Below the pieces are notes generated by a model. It was not told the DNA's origin, searched no databases, and worked only from the letters and a program-made list of their open reading frames with translations. Position numbers and translations under genes: made by a program. Below are positions 19,833-30,436 of a stretch of 31,450 nt of DNA, in pieces (position 1 is the stretch's first letter; each line of letters opens with the position of its first letter). This stretch comes from a virus: IMG/VR virus record IMGVR_UViG_3300032223_003149, positions 1 to 31,450 of that record. One strand, given 5' to 3'.

Positions 19833-19863
19833 TATCGCGATAAATATTTTACAATATTTATTA
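19833..19863. promoter_or_regulatory. Divergent late-promoter region with two adjoining palindromes
   Basis: The 60-base gap between gp48 (minus) and gp4 (plus) contains a palindrome TATCGCGATA (19833-19842) next to a perfect inverted repeat TAAATATT-ttac-AATATTTA (19841-19860). The plus strand reads GATAAATA (19839-19846), ending 33 bases before the gp4 ATG. The minus strand reads AATAAATA (19862-19855), ending 37 bases before the gp48 ATG. Both are one base from the T4 late consensus TATAAATA. The boxes face each other, so each start site would fall in or beside the other box. This is the only gap that must serve both operons, which makes a promoter role likely. Confidence 0.6.
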
Positions 19864-25084: not shown

Positions 25085-25990
25085 TTAACCAGCCAATTTC
25101 TTGAAGAATTCTAACGATTCATCTTCGTCATCGTCTTCCATTTGAGACTGCTTAGGTGTATCAACAGCCTTAAACTTAGGTGCAGGTTCCGTGCGAGTCC
25201 AAGGAAGCTCTTCCTCCTCAGCCTTCTTAACGATCTTTGCAGCTGTTTCAGTTGAAAGTACACGAGCGAGACGCTCCTTGAGTTCATCATAAGACTTAAA
25301 GTTCTTAGGATCAAGGAATTCCTGAAGAGAATGTTCCTTCTTCCAAGTAGCTTCAAGTTCCTCATCATCGCTCATCAAAGGTCCGACCTTATCAAACTCC
25401 GAACGGTCATAATTACGATAACCTTCAACATTACGAATCTTCAACTTGAAATTAGCACCTGCCCAAAGATCAAATGGGTTAACAGGTTCCTCTCCAGGAA
25501 ACTGAGGATTCATCGCTTCATTCAACTTATCGAAAATCTTCTTGCCATACTTGTACAAGAACACCTTACCTTCATTTTCAGGATTACCTGAATCAGTAAC
25601 GACATAAATATTGGAAATAAAGTGAAGTCGACGCTTCTGCTTACGAGCAATTTCCTTGTCAGACTCAATGCCAGAGTTCCACAACTGAGAATTATACTCA
25701 GAAACAGGATCCTGCTTACCAAGAGTAGTCAAAGAATTTTCAATGTACCAAGAACCAGTTGGACCCTGAAAACCATGGTCAAACATGCGAATGAAAGGTA
25801 CATCTTCATTTTGAGGAGCGGGTAGGAAACGGATAACAGCATAGCCATTGCCAGCCTTATCTACAGTTGGGTTCCAAAAGCGATCATCGCCCTTCTTTTC
25901 CCCCTGATTACCATTTACCTTAGAAAGTTCGCTGGTAAGTTGTTCAAGAGACTTCTTGCCAGACATAGACTTGAGCTTAGAAAAATCCAT
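25085..25990 (-). CDS. 32: gp32-like single-stranded DNA-binding protein
   Basis: A 301-residue homologue of T4 gp32 (also 301 aa), which coats ssDNA in replication, recombination and repair. N-terminal basic/Ser part KLKSMSGKKS corresponds to the cooperativity (LAST) region. The core keeps NGYAVIRFLPA, FDHGFQGPTGSWYIEN, SNIYVVTDSGNPENEGKVFL, YKYGKKIFDKLNEAM and WAGANFKLKIRNVEGYRNYD. The C-terminus is acidic (EDDDEDESLEF), the protein-docking tail. The protein has no cysteine at all, so three of the four T4 zinc ligands (C77, C87, C90) are missing; only the His of DHGF remains. Codons are visibly more GC-ending than in neighbouring gp59, fitting high expression. CGGAG ribosome site. Confidence 0.95.
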   Translation of the reverse strand: MDFSKLKSMSGKKSLEQLTSELSKVNGNQGEKKGDDRFWNPTVDKAGNGYAVIRFLPAPQNEDVPFIRMFDHGFQGPTGSWYIENSLTTLGKQDPVSEYNSQLWNSGIESDKEIARKQKRRLHFISNIYVVTDSGNPENEGKVFLYKYGKKIFDKLNEAMNPQFPGEEPVNPFDLWAGANFKLKIRNVEGYRNYDRSEFDKVGPLMSDDEELEATWKKEHSLQEFLDPKNFKSYDELKERLARVLSTETAAKIVKKAEEEELPWTRTEPAPKFKAVDTPKQSQMEDDDEDESLEFFKKLAG

Positions 25991-26061: not shown

Positions 26062-26090
26062 AGTATACTTCTATTCATCAAAATAGTCAA
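26062..26090 (-). promoter_or_regulatory. Sigma70-type promoter for gp32
   Basis: Minus strand: TTGACT (26090-26085), 17-base spacer, TATACT (26067-26062); each box differs from consensus at one position. The -35 lies inside the 3' end of gp59. Predicted start near 26055 gives a leader of about 64 bases. This would let host polymerase transcribe gp32 separately from gp59. Confidence 0.7.
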
Positions 26091-26652
26091 GAATAATCTT
26101 TCTTATTTTATCCTTATCATACTTGATAAACGGAACGTACTTCTCAACTTTGGTCTTGAGTGTATCCCAAACCAAATCGTACTGCATTTTAGAATCCCAA
26201 TGTTTTTTAGCACCAGATAATTCTAAAAGCAAACACATTGTTTCTAACGAAATTTCTTTTCCCAAATATTTTTTCAAAAGAAACGGATGTTCATTATTCT
26301 TACATACAAAATTTTCATTAAAAACTGGATTAAGATTTGAAAGTTCTGTTTTAAACACATAGCTTAAACTTTGTTGTCTTTTCAACCAATCTTTGTAGAT
26401 GTTTTCGGCAATTTCGCTATATGCTAATTCGCGTATCCAAGCTTTTTCATTGTTGGAAAGATTAGCTATTAAAAAATTCTCAATATCAGGATGTTTTGCT
26501 AACTTTTGAAAAAACAATTTGTCTTTACGTTTTTCAAACGAATTAACGTTCAGTTTAACTTTACCATTGTACTTGAAATAATCATATGATGGTTTTGTAA
26601 AATGATTCTTCAACGCAACATAATGTTGATAGCATTCAAAAGCTGACATCAT
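26071..26652 (-). CDS. 59: gp59-like helicase loader
   Basis: T4 gp59 (217 aa) loads the gp41 helicase onto gp32-coated forks. This 193-residue protein shows YDYFKYNGKVKLN then FEKRKDKLFFQKLAKHPDIE and NFLIANLSNNEKAWIREL (T4: YDVIKYNWCMRVS, YQKRRDKYFFQKLSEKYKLK, LIFISNLVANQDAWIGDI), and later ISLETMCLLLELSG and DLVWDTLKTKVEKY (T4: ISFETFILLDSF, NLVWNNYSIKLKAY). It is directly upstream of gp32, as in T4 (33-59-32 order). Start overlaps the preceding stop (ATGA); a second ATG three bases later is equally possible. AT-rich codon use contrasts with gp32. Confidence 0.92.
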   Translation of the reverse strand: MMSAFECYQHYVALKNHFTKPSYDYFKYNGKVKLNVNSFEKRKDKLFFQKLAKHPDIENFLIANLSNNEKAWIRELAYSEIAENIYKDWLKRQQSLSYVFKTELSNLNPVFNENFVCKNNEHPFLLKKYLGKEISLETMCLLLELSGAKKHWDSKMQYDLVWDTLKTKVEKYVPFIKYDKDKIRKIILDYFDE

Positions 26653-27392: not shown

Positions 27393-27614
27393 TCAGATTG
27401 GCAACCTAGCACCCCTCTTAAGTATGTTTAAATTTTCAGCTTCTGCTTGAATTTTTGACTTGAAAACTGGGTCTTTTTTGATCAATCCAGCCATATACTC
27501 AACTTCAATTTTATTTTTCTCACACCAATAAACAACAGCGTCAATGTATTCAATGTTTTTAGTTCGGCAAAGTTTTTCTATCTCTTCAATAACGTTATTA
27601 CTCATCTGGATCAT
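27393..27614 (-). CDS. 33: gp33-like late transcription co-activator
   Basis: T4 gp33 (112 aa) bridges RNA polymerase and the sliding clamp for late transcription. This 73-residue protein aligns with its central and C-terminal part: VIEEIEKLCRTKNIEYIDAV, VYWCEKNKIEVEYMAGLI, KSKIQAEAENLNIL (T4: IIEKMVEEFGMSYLEATTAF, LEENSIPETQFAKFI, IEKIQSEAIDENLL). The T4 C-terminal clamp-binding tail (ending LDFLL) has no clear counterpart; this protein ends RGARLPI. Start could be ATG 27614 (AAAGG 8 bases upstream) or ATG 27605, which overlaps the upstream stop as ATGAGTAA. Order gp33, two inserted genes, gp59, gp32 supports the call. Confidence 0.8.
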   Translation of the reverse strand: MIQMSNNVIEEIEKLCRTKNIEYIDAVVYWCEKNKIEVEYMAGLIKKDPVFKSKIQAEAENLNILKRGARLPI

Positions 27615-27822: not shown

Positions 27823-27914
27823 TGGTAGGGGTGCTCGGATTTGAACCAAGTCGAGAACGCTAATCGGGCGCTGAAAGGCTTATAAGACCTCCCTGTGTAC
27901 CAACACCCACCCCC
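27823..27914 (-). tRNA. Class-II-like tRNA with unusual features, isotype uncertain
   Basis: Folds as acceptor GGGGGTG/CACCCCT (one G-U), discriminator A and encoded CCA; T arm CTTGG-TTCAAAT-CCGAG; a 24-base variable region with a CGC/GCG stem, as in Leu/Ser/Tyr tRNAs. The anticodon loop is CTTATAA if the stem GAGGT/GCCTT is used, placing TAT (reads AUA, Ile) after U33, which is odd for a class II tRNA. The D arm is very short (GTG-TTGGTA-CAC) and position 8 is G, not the usual U. Leu-like D loop and A73 are present. It could be a degenerate or specialised tRNA. Confidence 0.6.
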
Positions 27915-27919
27915 ATAAA

Positions 27920-27996
27920 TGGCGCCCTCTGAGCGATTCGAACGCCCGACCCACGGAGTAGAAATCCGTTGCTCTATCCTGCTGAGCTAAGAAGGC
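27920..27996 (-). tRNA. tRNA-Arg(UCU)
   Basis: Complete cloverleaf of 77 bases: acceptor GCCTTCT/AGAGGGC, D arm AGCTCAGCAGGATAGAGC, anticodon arm ACGGA-TTTCTAC-TCCGT with TCT in the anticodon position, T loop TTCGAAT, encoded CCA. It decodes AGA (and AGG), the arginine codon preferred throughout the AT-rich structural genes here, so it probably compensates for host codon supply. It ends five bases before the next tRNA and begins eight bases after the tmRNA hairpin. Confidence 0.95.
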
Positions 27997-28004
27997 AAAA
28001 AGGT

Positions 28005-28147
28005 GGCGGGATTCTGTTTCCACGTTCCCGCCGAACGCATTCTTATGCAGCTAGGGCATAAGAGAGAGGTGCATTATCGTTTGCATCTAACGTTTACTTA
28101 GGTCTCTTCGCAACTTTACTACAACCCGTCGAACCTATTTCGCCCCC
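28005..28147 (-). ncRNA. ssrA: Permuted tmRNA, coding piece with tag reading frame
   Basis: The 5' half of tmRNA: GGGGGCGAAATAGGTTCGAC then GGG, the conserved tmRNA 5' end, with the acceptor strand GGGGGCG. The resume codon GCA is at 28084-28082 and the tag frame gives ANDNAPLSYALAA then TAA (28045-28043); with the charged alanine the tag is AANDN-...-ALAA, ending in the LAA-type protease signal. After the tag comes a strong hairpin GGCGGGA/TCCCGCC (28005-28032) followed by ACCTTTTT, which is either a tmRNA helix or a partial terminator. This half lies after the acceptor half, so the gene is circularly permuted. Confidence 0.92.
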
Positions 28148-28223
28148 CTCAAAAACACACTGTTACACTCACTATATGGAGTAAGAATCGATGCTATAAA
28201 AGCAAGGATCCCCAATGTGCTTT
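28148..28223 (-). ncRNA. Intervening segment of the permuted tmRNA precursor
   Basis: A 76-base stretch between the CCA end of the acceptor piece and the 5' G of the coding piece. In permuted tmRNAs this loop is removed during maturation. It begins with a small hairpin (AAAGCA / TGCTTT around GGGGATCC). No open frame or other motif is visible. Confidence 0.75.
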
Positions 28224-28292
28224 TGGTGGAGGCGGGGAGTACTGCCCTCCCGTCCGAATCGTTTATTCCTTACGCCTCAACGACCGAAGCAA
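28224..28292 (-). ncRNA. ssrA: Permuted tmRNA, acceptor piece
   Basis: The 3' half of tmRNA, transcribed first. It ends ATTCGGAC, GGGAG-GGCAGTA-CTCCC, CGCCTCC, ACCA, matching the tmRNA 3' end (E. coli: TTTCGGAC, T arm, acceptor, ACCA). CGCCTCC pairs with the GGGGGCG of the coding piece over all seven positions (one G-U). CCA is encoded at 28226-28224. The seven-base T loop GGCAGTA departs from the usual TTCRANY. The upstream boundary is set from the predicted transcription start and is approximate. Confidence 0.9.
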
Positions 28293-28299
28293 TATATTT

Positions 28300-28328
28300 A
28301 TTCTACTACTAATAGTTTTTAAAGTCAA
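28300..28328 (-). promoter_or_regulatory. Sigma70-type promoter for the tmRNA-tRNA cluster
   Basis: Minus strand: TTGACT (28328-28323), 17-base spacer, TAGAAT (28305-28300), one mismatch in each box. The TGA inside the -35 is the stop codon of the upstream 85-aa gene. The predicted start near 28292 is right at the tmRNA acceptor piece. An AT-rich inverted repeat (AATAGTT/AACTATT) surrounds the -35. An AATAAATA octamer overlaps the -10 (28302-28295) and could give late expression as well. Confidence 0.72.
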
Positions 28329-28582
28329 TAACTATTTTTCTTTCTTACACTATGTTCTGCAATAAACTCTTCTGCATCAGGACGATAAATGTAATACTTC
28401 AGTATCGTCTCAAGAGCTTCTGAAAGAGCAAAAGCGTTAAACATATCTTCATATTCATACTGCTTAAGAGGGCCAGGACACTGCTTCAGCCTACGGATTT
28501 CCTCCTGCTGGGCAATGTAATCCTTCTTAATAGTGTCAACAACGATTCTATCTACAAGAGTGTCATCAATTTCAAATTTCAT
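28325..28582 (-). CDS. Small conserved-looking phage protein, function unknown
   Basis: 85 residues: MKFEIDDTLVDRIVVDTIKK then DYIAQQEEIRRLK, and after a Cys-Pro turn a helical part with YEDMFNAFALSEALETILKY. I recall similar short MKFEIDD-type proteins in T4-like phages, without an assigned role. ATG 28582 shares a base with the stop of the upstream 373-aa gene (TGATG) and has AAGG 7 bases upstream; the GTG at 28585 is a weaker alternative. Its stop codon is embedded in the tmRNA -35 element. Confidence 0.7.
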   Translation of the reverse strand: MKFEIDDTLVDRIVVDTIKKDYIAQQEEIRRLKQCPGPLKQYEYEDMFNAFALSEALETILKYYIYRPDAEEFIAEHSVRKKNSY

Positions 28583-29703
28583 CACATCACCTTCATTAGT
28601 ACAGTGTTTTCGTTTATACGGATTTGAAGAGGTTTATCGGTCTTCAACTCATCCATCAGTTTCCTCAGAATGATCTTGCCACCATTTTGAAGCTTGGTTA
28701 GAACATCTTCTGGTTTACGCCCGCAACCCTTGCTGAGGGAAGTTTTCTCATCATAACCAATGATAGAGGTTCCCTTGATTTGCAAGCCACCACGATCCAA
28801 TGCACGGAATACCGTAACAACCTTGTATTTGGTATTGAACGTCCACAGTTCCTGTGCACCAATAATCTTTTCTGGATTAATCGAAGCAATCTTGAAGGTA
28901 TTATCCTCCTTCTGATACTTGAGGTTCTTGAGCTTCTTCTCAACAGAAACAGCGCGAGGCTTACGTGGTGCGCGAGTTTTCTTAGTTACATTACCATAAC
29001 GATCTACATCCTCAATCATCTTATTGAGAAATTCGATACGCTTACGCAACTGAGGCTTAGACAAATATCGATACGCTTCCTTGAGTTGCGGATCTCCACC
29101 CTCATACGCTTCAATCAACTCAGCAAGCCAAGGAGAATAATGAGCTATGATTGACGTGCAATACGTAGCTGGGATTTCCTTGGCTTTGAGCCAATCGTAG
29201 ATGGAAAACTCTTCTCCAGAGTCAATCATTTCTTCGATTTCGCCAATGATGTCGTGCTGGCGTTCGCGAATACGTTCCTGAATAGAAATGACAGGAGCTG
29301 ATTTTGACTCTTTAGGATCATCCTTTGACACACGAGCCAAGGATTCTTTTAGCTTGTTTTCGGCGTAAACTTTCGCGCTCGAAGGTAGCTGATAGCCCTT
29401 GCTGAGCATACGGAATACCCAAGCTGCAGTTGAAGGAACCCAAGCATCAGATACACGCTTGATATGCTTAGCTTCTGCCAATCGATTGTTAGCCTTCAGG
29501 TACGTATCGATGTATTCACGAGCATCACTCGTATCGCACATGCAATTATACCAATTCAAGGCAAGACCATATTCTCCATCGGTCATAGCACCAAGGAAAA
29601 CAGGCTCGTCGCCCATATATTTCAAGTTGACCAGGTACGATTCGCTACGTGATACGCGAATTTTCTTAGGGGTCTTTTTGATGATAGATGCACGACGAGC
29701 CAT
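28582..29703 (-). CDS. Conserved phage protein of unknown function (373 aa)
   Basis: A basic 373-residue protein. The N-terminal 30 residues are Lys/Arg-rich (RRASIIKKTPKKIRVSRSES); residues 30-120 are helical (MTDGEYGLALNWYNCMCD, AWVFRMLSKGYQLP); a segment at 145-255 is charged and helical, then TKKTRAPRKPRA (about 242-253), and the C-terminal 110 residues appear beta-rich (YKVVTVFRALDRGGLQIKG, QIRINENTVLMKVM). The basic segments suggest nucleic-acid binding, which is inference. I believe relatives occur in other T4-like phages but know no function. It has a perfect consensus promoter and a GGAG ribosome site, and higher GC than the structural genes, so strong early expression is likely. Confidence 0.75.
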   Translation of the reverse strand: MARRASIIKKTPKKIRVSRSESYLVNLKYMGDEPVFLGAMTDGEYGLALNWYNCMCDTSDAREYIDTYLKANNRLAEAKHIKRVSDAWVPSTAAWVFRMLSKGYQLPSSAKVYAENKLKESLARVSKDDPKESKSAPVISIQERIRERQHDIIGEIEEMIDSGEEFSIYDWLKAKEIPATYCTSIIAHYSPWLAELIEAYEGGDPQLKEAYRYLSKPQLRKRIEFLNKMIEDVDRYGNVTKKTRAPRKPRAVSVEKKLKNLKYQKEDNTFKIASINPEKIIGAQELWTFNTKYKVVTVFRALDRGGLQIKGTSIIGYDEKTSLSKGCGRKPEDVLTKLQNGGKIILRKLMDELKTDKPLQIRINENTVLMKVM

Positions 29704-29727: not shown

Positions 29728-29756
29728 ATTATACTCTAGAATTTAGGGTTTGTCAA
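29728..29756 (-). promoter_or_regulatory. Perfect-consensus sigma70 promoter for the 373-aa gene
   Basis: Minus strand: TTGACA (29756-29751), exactly 17 bases, TATAAT (29733-29728). Both boxes match consensus at all positions. The predicted start near 29721 leaves a short leader with GGAG before ATG 29703. The TGA inside TTGACA is the stop codon of the upstream GIY-YIG gene, the same arrangement as at the tmRNA promoter. Confidence 0.9.
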
Positions 29757-30436
29757 GACCAAAATTTACTCCAAAGCTCCATCACACTATCAATATTCTT
29801 GCATGTGACAGCAAGCTTGTAGTCTGTCTTACCAGCAGGCTCGACTTCATAGCCATTTTCGCTATTCAGCCACTTGGTGATCTTGCTCTTAATATCTTCG
29901 AGATCGTCGCCCTTGAAGTATGACGCAAACTCGAAGATGATCTTTACGCTTTCCTCGGCAAAGTACCAATAGAAGGTGAAGTAGATACCACGGTTTGCAT
30001 TACTGACAACGTAGTAACTTGTTTCGTTAATCTGCAGAGTACGAATTTTACCACGAAGATCGTCATAATGATCTGTATACCAAATTGGAAACTCTTCGAA
30101 ATTATCGACCTTACCAGCCTGGAAGTCGGTAAACATAGACGAGAGAGAAGTCATAACAAAGCATTCCTTATAGTGACCAGCGACAGAATTGTCTTTTGGA
30201 TTAGCGATATTGATGAGGTATGATTCGAGCAGAAAGCTAGGTTTGTCATTGAACTTTTCCAAATTGCGAGCTATAATTTGGCAGTTCTCGTACTTGTAGC
30301 CTTTGTCTTTGAGGTGGGAAAGACAACGATCATCTTTCCCTTTGCCGATGTACATAGTTTGGAATCCATCGTCGAAGTAACGATAGACATACTCACCAAG
30401 AGTTCTAAAAAACTCTGCAGTCGGTTTCTCTATCAA
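29753..30436 (-). CDS. GIY-YIG nuclease-like protein with extra C-terminal domain
   Basis: 227 residues. The N-terminal 90 residues read GEYVYRYFDDGFQTMYIGKG then KDDRCLSHLKDKGY, with SFLLESYLINIANP: the YVY / YIGKGK / DRCxxH / E pattern of the LEM-3-like GIY-YIG family. Likely catalytic residues are both tyrosines, the Arg of KDDR and the Glu of LLES. The C-terminal 130 residues (YYVVSNANRGIYFTFYWYF and following) are unassigned. The start is a TTG overlapping the DUF932 stop (TTGA), with GGAGG four bases upstream; no ATG is suitably placed. It may cleave DNA or RNA; a free-standing homing role cannot be excluded. Confidence 0.75.
   Translation of the reverse strand: MIEKPTAEFFRTLGEYVYRYFDDGFQTMYIGKGKDDRCLSHLKDKGYKYENCQIIARNLEKFNDKPSFLLESYLINIANPKDNSVAGHYKECFVMTSLSSMFTDFQAGKVDNFEEFPIWYTDHYDDLRGKIRTLQINETSYYVVSNANRGIYFTFYWYFAEESVKIIFEFASYFKGDDLEDIKSKITKWLNSENGYEVEPAGKTDYKLAVTCKNIDSVMELWSKFWS

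Follow-up and report, generated by a model that had tools for sequence, protein, structure and literature searches.

The locus examined here raises the question of whether a phage carries and maintains a working tmRNA gene split into two permuted pieces, or only the remains of a host gene, and of how the spacer between the two pieces evolves. The window (the whole stretch of DNA analysed, 31,450 nt) is a 31.4-kb virus record. Very probably, its tmRNA gene is a working, phage-maintained two-piece gene of the alphaproteobacterial type, which would be expressed from its own promoter and processed by host enzymes, and in which the intervening sequence (IVS) is swapped as a cassette.

The window contains a complete permuted tmRNA gene of alphaproteobacterial type at positions 28290–28002 on the minus strand. 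The covariance search proposed in the initial annotation was performed, and both Rfam models matched over their full length and above their curated cut-offs: RF01849 (alpha_tmRNA) with 108.2 bits (E 6.8e-29, cut-off 50) and RF04321 (tmRNA_permuted) with 105.6 bits (E 7.2e-20, cut-off 47). ARAGORN reported a tmRNA* (permuted) with the tag ANDNAPLSYALAA. As that annotation had described, the acceptor half precedes the 5' half, and all elements were located at the expected place. The acceptor half (28224..28290, minus strand; RF01849 and RF04321) consists of the 5' strand of P2, the T arm (28235..28251) with a 5-bp stem, and the 3' acceptor strand with ACCA (28234-28224). It is followed by the IVS (28148..28223), which extends from the CCA to the 5' end of the mRNA half and is exactly 76 nt long, the length given earlier for the loop between the halves. 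The two strands of the IVS closing helix (28214..28223 and 28152..28161) pair with each other, and the IVS hairpin had a fold z-score of -5.0. The mRNA half (28002..28147; RF01849) includes the 5' acceptor strand GGGGGCG, the resume region, the tag, and a 3'-terminal hairpin (28005..28032) with the conserved GGAAACAGAA loop region, placed by the Rfam model alignment. The folding z-score of the window tmRNA was -4.0.

Pairing of the acceptor strands at all seven positions was verified, pair 3 being G3·U70, and A73 and the CCA are encoded. The G·U wobble at pair 3 is an alanine identity element, which marks tmRNA for alanyl-tRNA synthetase; G3·U70 was present in every phage and bacterial tmRNA copy scanned. 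The claim that the gene has a tag of its own also stood, as the codons from 28084 to 28043 encode ANDNAPLSYALAA followed by a stop, with the ANDN start retained (reading frame 28043..28084, minus strand; ARAGORN and coordinates). The span given by ARAGORN (27952-28316) overruns into the tRNA-Arg gene at the 3' end, and the 3' end of the tmRNA is probably better set by the Rfam limit (28002) and the terminal hairpin (28032-28005).

Directly upstream of the tmRNA, a sigma70-like promoter TTGACT-N17-TAGAAT is predicted (28300..28328, minus strand; 10 of 12 consensus letters), and an octamer resembling a T4 late promoter, AATAAATA, overlaps its -10 element (28295..28302, minus strand). In the window, sigma70-like matches in the promoter region were no commoner than in shuffled sequences; the sigma70-like architecture was common to most relatives and to four loci recovered by IVS alone. 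All 41 relatives and the window have the octamer NNTAAATA 65–70 nt ahead of the 3' acceptor strand. In these phages, the motif TATAAATA, the T4 late promoter core, was 16-fold enriched upstream of same-strand genes (29 of 68 sites, 1.8 expected, none antisense), the contigs being related and thus not independent. The octamer of 13 of the 42 loci is CTAAATA, which makes a poorer late promoter and is accompanied by a good -10 element, so that early, late, and dual use are all compatible with the data. Judging from the consensus, the tmRNA gene most likely has its own promoter with sigma70-like elements overlapping a T4-late-like motif. Elsewhere in the window, two back-to-back ATAAATA motifs (19839-19862) lie between divergent structural genes and are likely divergent late promoters.

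The carrier is a fragment of a T4-like myovirus, which agrees with the phage-borne origin claimed in the initial annotation; its observation is confirmed, and its interpretation is supported. Genes for a gp6-like baseplate wedge, tail tube cap, baseplate hub, gp59, gp32, and a gp33-like regulator were recognized. The tmRNA is followed on the minus strand by tRNA-Arg(TCT) (27920..27996; ARAGORN, Rfam), lying directly downstream in an arrangement common to most relatives, and then by a 92-nt tRNA with a TAT anticodon and a long variable arm (27823..27914; ARAGORN), the gp33-like late promoter transcription regulator (27393..27614; PHROG 254, E 3.5e-15), the gp59 helicase loader (26071..26652; Pfam PF08993, PHROG 269), and the gp32 single-strand DNA binding protein (25085..25990; PHROG 224, E 1e-116). 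The TAT-anticodon tRNA is also conserved in relatives L082, L084, L090, L111, L112, L114, and L121. ARAGORN named it tRNA-Ile; a class-II body is unusual with TAT, and both Ile and Leu identities are candidates.

The tmRNA type, together with Porin_2 genes beside the tmRNA in two relatives, suggests an alphaproteobacterium as the host of the window phage. These outer-membrane porin genes are located directly 3' of the phage tmRNA and tRNA-Arg (L091:5583-6929 and L102:8441-9832). Beijerinckiaceae and other Hyphomicrobiales gave most of the bacterial matches to the 5'-piece pattern, but their tmRNAs group apart from the phage ones, so that these matches point to no particular host. When isolate phages were searched for direct DNA similarity to the window, the matches were mostly to tRNA-Arg, and the tmRNA was matched by short pieces only.

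Whether a permuted phage tmRNA had been described before was left open in the initial annotation; it had. Buchholz et al. (2022; PMC9004378) reported one in Methylophilales phage Melnitz and also placed one in Pelagibacter phage Mosig, and obtained 53 two-piece ARAGORN calls, of which 50 were marine or aquatic, from 18,146 phage genomes. A tmRNA database paper of 2025 lists 79 unique bacteriophage tmRNA sequences (PMC11915505). Like the window gene, those of Melnitz and Mosig are permuted, of alphaproteobacterial type, and carried by T4-like phages in which no phage SmpB was found. Their annotated SsrA stands just upstream of the late-transcription coactivator, followed by gp59 and gp32, and the window likewise has the order gp33-gp59-gp32. 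The window gene differs in being followed by tRNA-Arg and the TAT tRNA and in having an IVS common to other uncultured phages. Unlike the Melnitz/Mosig kind, the window has no glutamine riboswitch (the Rfam matches were to tmRNA and tRNA alone); this element is common but not defining for phage two-piece tmRNA (PMC9004378). The tags given by ARAGORN are ANDNYVPVDYALAA for Melnitz and GEDNFALAA for Mosig versus ANDNAPLSYALAA for the window. One-piece phage tmRNAs, as listed in PMC4131195 (Bacillus phage G, mycobacteriophages Bxz1, Wildcat, and others), are phage-carried as well, but are not permuted and belong to other host groups. Bacterial permuted ssrA (RF01849, merged RF04321) shares with the window gene the order of halves, the acceptor stem with G3·U70, the T arm, the tag type, the terminal hairpin, and the IVS closing helix, but represents another lineage with shorter IVSs, and IVS sharing between divergent genes was not seen there.

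Relatives were defined as IMG/VR loci encoding relatives of the protein at 28582-29703 (41 loci). A permuted tmRNA was present beside this neighbour gene in all 41, the copy of L101 ending before the tag at the contig end. RF04321 was matched by 33 of the 45 records searched. The phage copies scored 75–123 bits on this model, below most sampled bacterial copies, and given these lower scores, some function of the phage copies could be altered. Caulobacter phage Cr30 and Sinorhizobium phage phiM12, which are related in gp6, gave no RF04321 match. Among 32 distinct relatives, pairing of the T stem was complete (100%), and three of its five pairs had two-sided changes. In the same set, the IVS closing helix was 92.5% paired, compared to at most 77% with strands re-dealt, and had two-sided changes at 9 of 10 pairs, in a register picked after viewing the same sequences. 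Both helices lay outside the search criteria; pairing of the acceptor strands was a criterion for finding relatives, and its 100% pairing in the covariation count is not independent evidence. The IVS helix also occurs in bacterial genes, where it is less regular.

In a tree of the mature parts, 41 of 42 phage copies fell on one side of a branch with support of 97/98, and 57 alphaproteobacterial copies together with the copy of a Mesorhizobium phage fell on the opposite side; the alignment behind the tree has about 225 columns, the sampling of bacteria is limited, and the phage side includes some long branches. The tmRNAs of Melnitz and Mosig grouped with that of the window apart from the bacterial ones, a provisional grouping given the long branches of Melnitz, Mosig, and the Rhodobacter phage. 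On the basis of this split, the phage tmRNA is most likely an old phage lineage rather than a fresh host capture, as far as a short alignment and a limited bacterial sample indicate. Previously unannotated permuted tmRNA genes were found in Rhodobacter phage RcSimone-Hastad (L126:421-834) and Mesorhizobium phage Cp1R7A-A1 (L127:425-834).

The tags of the relatives keep ANDN starts and end mostly in LAA or VAA, which argues for genuine tagging rather than for a decoy. Variant ends were KIAA in L088 (8332-8690) and ALVA in L122 (9034-9415). An ANDN start and an LAA end also occur in bacterial tags; since the window tag keeps both, we do not favour the suggestion of the initial annotation that tagging is redirected away from host control. 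No match to SmpB was found in 26 phage records and none to SspB in 17. From established tmRNA biology, the RNA must then rely on SmpB, AlaRS, EF-Tu, processing enzymes, and proteases of the host.

We propose the following working of the gene. Transcription would proceed from the overlapping sigma70-like/T4-late-like promoter, and the RNA would begin no more than a few bases ahead of its first structured position. The precursor is predicted to form one long hairpin composed of the acceptor stem, a small CCA-containing internal loop, and the IVS helix. Host tRNA-processing enzymes would remove the IVS, and the two pieces would stay joined via the acceptor and P2 helices. The RNA would be charged by host AlaRS via G3·U70 and delivered to stalled ribosomes by host SmpB and EF-Tu; the tag ANDNAPLSYALAA would then be added and the product degraded by host proteases. 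The phage would most likely benefit because ribosomes are kept circulating while mRNAs are cut in infection, and ribosome rescue during infection, which the initial annotation had suggested for its late phase, is the most likely use of the phage tmRNA.

An early use, in which tagging and degradation of host proteins would recycle their amino acids (the suggestion of Buchholz et al. for Melnitz), appears unlikely. The good sigma70-like promoter that the window shares with most relatives would suit it, as would a ClpP-family protein in six tmRNA-bearing phages, though PHROG points rather to head maturation proteases; tmRNA, however, targets stalled ribosomes rather than finished host proteins, and the late-type octamer that overlaps the promoter indicates late use, too. 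The ClpP family comprises peptidases degrading tagged proteins, and the gene was found at L277:1432-2001 and in records G014, G026, G029, G031, G035, and G039. Still less probable is that the phage tmRNA ties up host SmpB as a decoy or inhibitor, the role put forward for the mycobacteriophage DS6A tmRNA, which lacks a tag. A phage tmRNA consisting of the tRNA-like domain only is known, and in E. coli the endogenous tmRNA is inhibited by an RNA of this form (PMC11915505, PMC4131195), but a decoy has no need of the tag frame, resume codon, stop, and degron-like end that nearly all relatives keep. A recently captured or decaying host ssrA fragment carried without function, e.g., after imprecise excision, is scarcely credible, for although prophages can carry ssrA fragments (Buchholz et al., PMC9004378) and the RF04321 scores of the phage copies are below most bacterial ones, the elements are intact in 41 relatives, the stems are preserved by two-sided changes, and the copies form a separate lineage at a genome position common to Melnitz and Mosig. 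Ribosome rescue by a tmRNA that the phage maintains is the reading that we keep.

The IVS of this gene has a history of its own. The window and its near twin L082 were 98% identical over 8.9 kb of DNA, and their mRNA pieces were identical over the 130 nt compared and differed near the 3' end, but their IVSs were unrelated (42%) and the acceptor half had several differences. The reverse was observed for 15 pairs among the first relatives, in which the IVSs were about 89–96% identical and the mRNA pieces merely 55–73%. The window and L135, for example, had identities of 93% in the IVS, 70% in the mRNA piece, and 59% in the neighbour protein. In L091 and L290, the 92-nt IVS was identical at an mRNA-piece identity of 55% and a neighbour-protein identity of 42%; these two loci had a 131-nt exact match at the tmRNA and no second exact match of at least 24 nt in a comparison of 10.8 x 14.6 kb. 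The borders of the shared stretches fall in or near the acceptor strands.

Across 46 phage genes, identity of the mRNA piece correlated with that of the acceptor half (0.84) and hardly with that of the IVS (0.23). A similar IVS combined with a dissimilar mRNA piece was found in 31 phage pairs and in 0 of 2415 bacterial pairs, with four phage loci chosen by IVS and fewer close groups in the bacterial sample. In the first sample, IVS length ranged from 23 to 170 nt in phages and from 12 to 70 nt in bacteria; the shortest phage IVS, 23 nt, belongs to relative L110 (9125-9443). Scans of IMG/VR with the IVS alone (four families) retrieved 18 stretches, all of them known as tmRNA loci or read as such and including new, more distant phages. 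A first IVS pattern scan, which was over-specific, gave no matches, and a scan of 385 alphaproteobacterial genomes, run without a positive control, gave no match to the window IVS. Because IVS identity is uncoupled from mRNA-piece identity and the same IVS is shared by divergent phages, we conclude that the IVS evolves separately from the other parts of the gene and is exchanged as a cassette between very different phages. Being little constrained beyond its closing helix, it would be replaced when tmRNA genes of different phages recombine locally.

As to what drives the exchange, ordinary homologous recombination of co-infecting phages at short conserved acceptor sequences, with neither a dedicated driver nor selection, has an even chance of being the explanation. 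The conserved acceptor flanks of about 11–20 nt on either side of the IVS would allow it, and adjacent segments of the acceptor half are mosaic too (window vs. L082). On the other hand, the tracts are just about 100–130 nt long and recur at one site (131 exact nt in L091/L290, against no other exact match of 24 nt or longer), and genes of homing-endonuclease type adjoin the tmRNA in some relatives. The sharing is most improbably an artefact of metagenome assembly: every sharing locus is an assembled metagenome contig and conserved acceptor sequences could mislead an assembler, but contigs of different sample numbers contain the same cassette, both of its flanks differing within about 130 nt, and the 15 sharing pairs were noticed before any IVS-directed search.

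The exchanged IVS may also be a mobile cassette of short structured sequences spread by targeted, endonuclease-driven gene conversion or by an advantage of the excised RNA, a reading that we hold only tentatively; the horizontal exchange itself is observed, and targeting and selection are candidates only. An advantage of the excised RNA might be, for example, one against a defence or rival nuclease recognizing the spacer. The tmRNA has neighbouring genes of homing-endonuclease type in L086 and L106, and L088 gave a weak GIY-YIG match; in most relatives examined, no recognized endonuclease was found next to the tmRNA. Homing endonucleases are thus a possible driver. In intronless homing of T4-like phages (PMC2988022, PMC13096335), as in the IVS, a short segment is replaced between related phages. 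The homing-type genes next to the tmRNA of L106 and L086 are a further similarity, and cleavage of the IVS would be a candidate step. The SegB homing endonuclease is reported to occur frequently together with tRNAs. The protein encoded at 29753-30436 (minus strand) of the window has a start that looks GIY-YIG endonuclease-like by eye (YVYRYFDDG...MYIGKGKDDRCLSHL), with no Pfam match and a weak PHROG match. This gene was rejected as the IVS driver, being near the tmRNA only in L082, L099, and L100, with no general link.

The two-piece phage tmRNA itself was already known, and the exchange of its IVS is the new point; we did not find it described in the literature, in a search that was not exhaustive. 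A group of T4-like phages carries the permuted tmRNA as a regular component rather than as something captured by chance, and the need of a phage for ribosome rescue becomes testable. The IVS exchange is the part worth following. Should the cassette prove truly mobile, tmRNA genes would be added to tRNA and intron sites as places of active exchange between phages, and the diversity of a spacer that is discarded would call for a reason.
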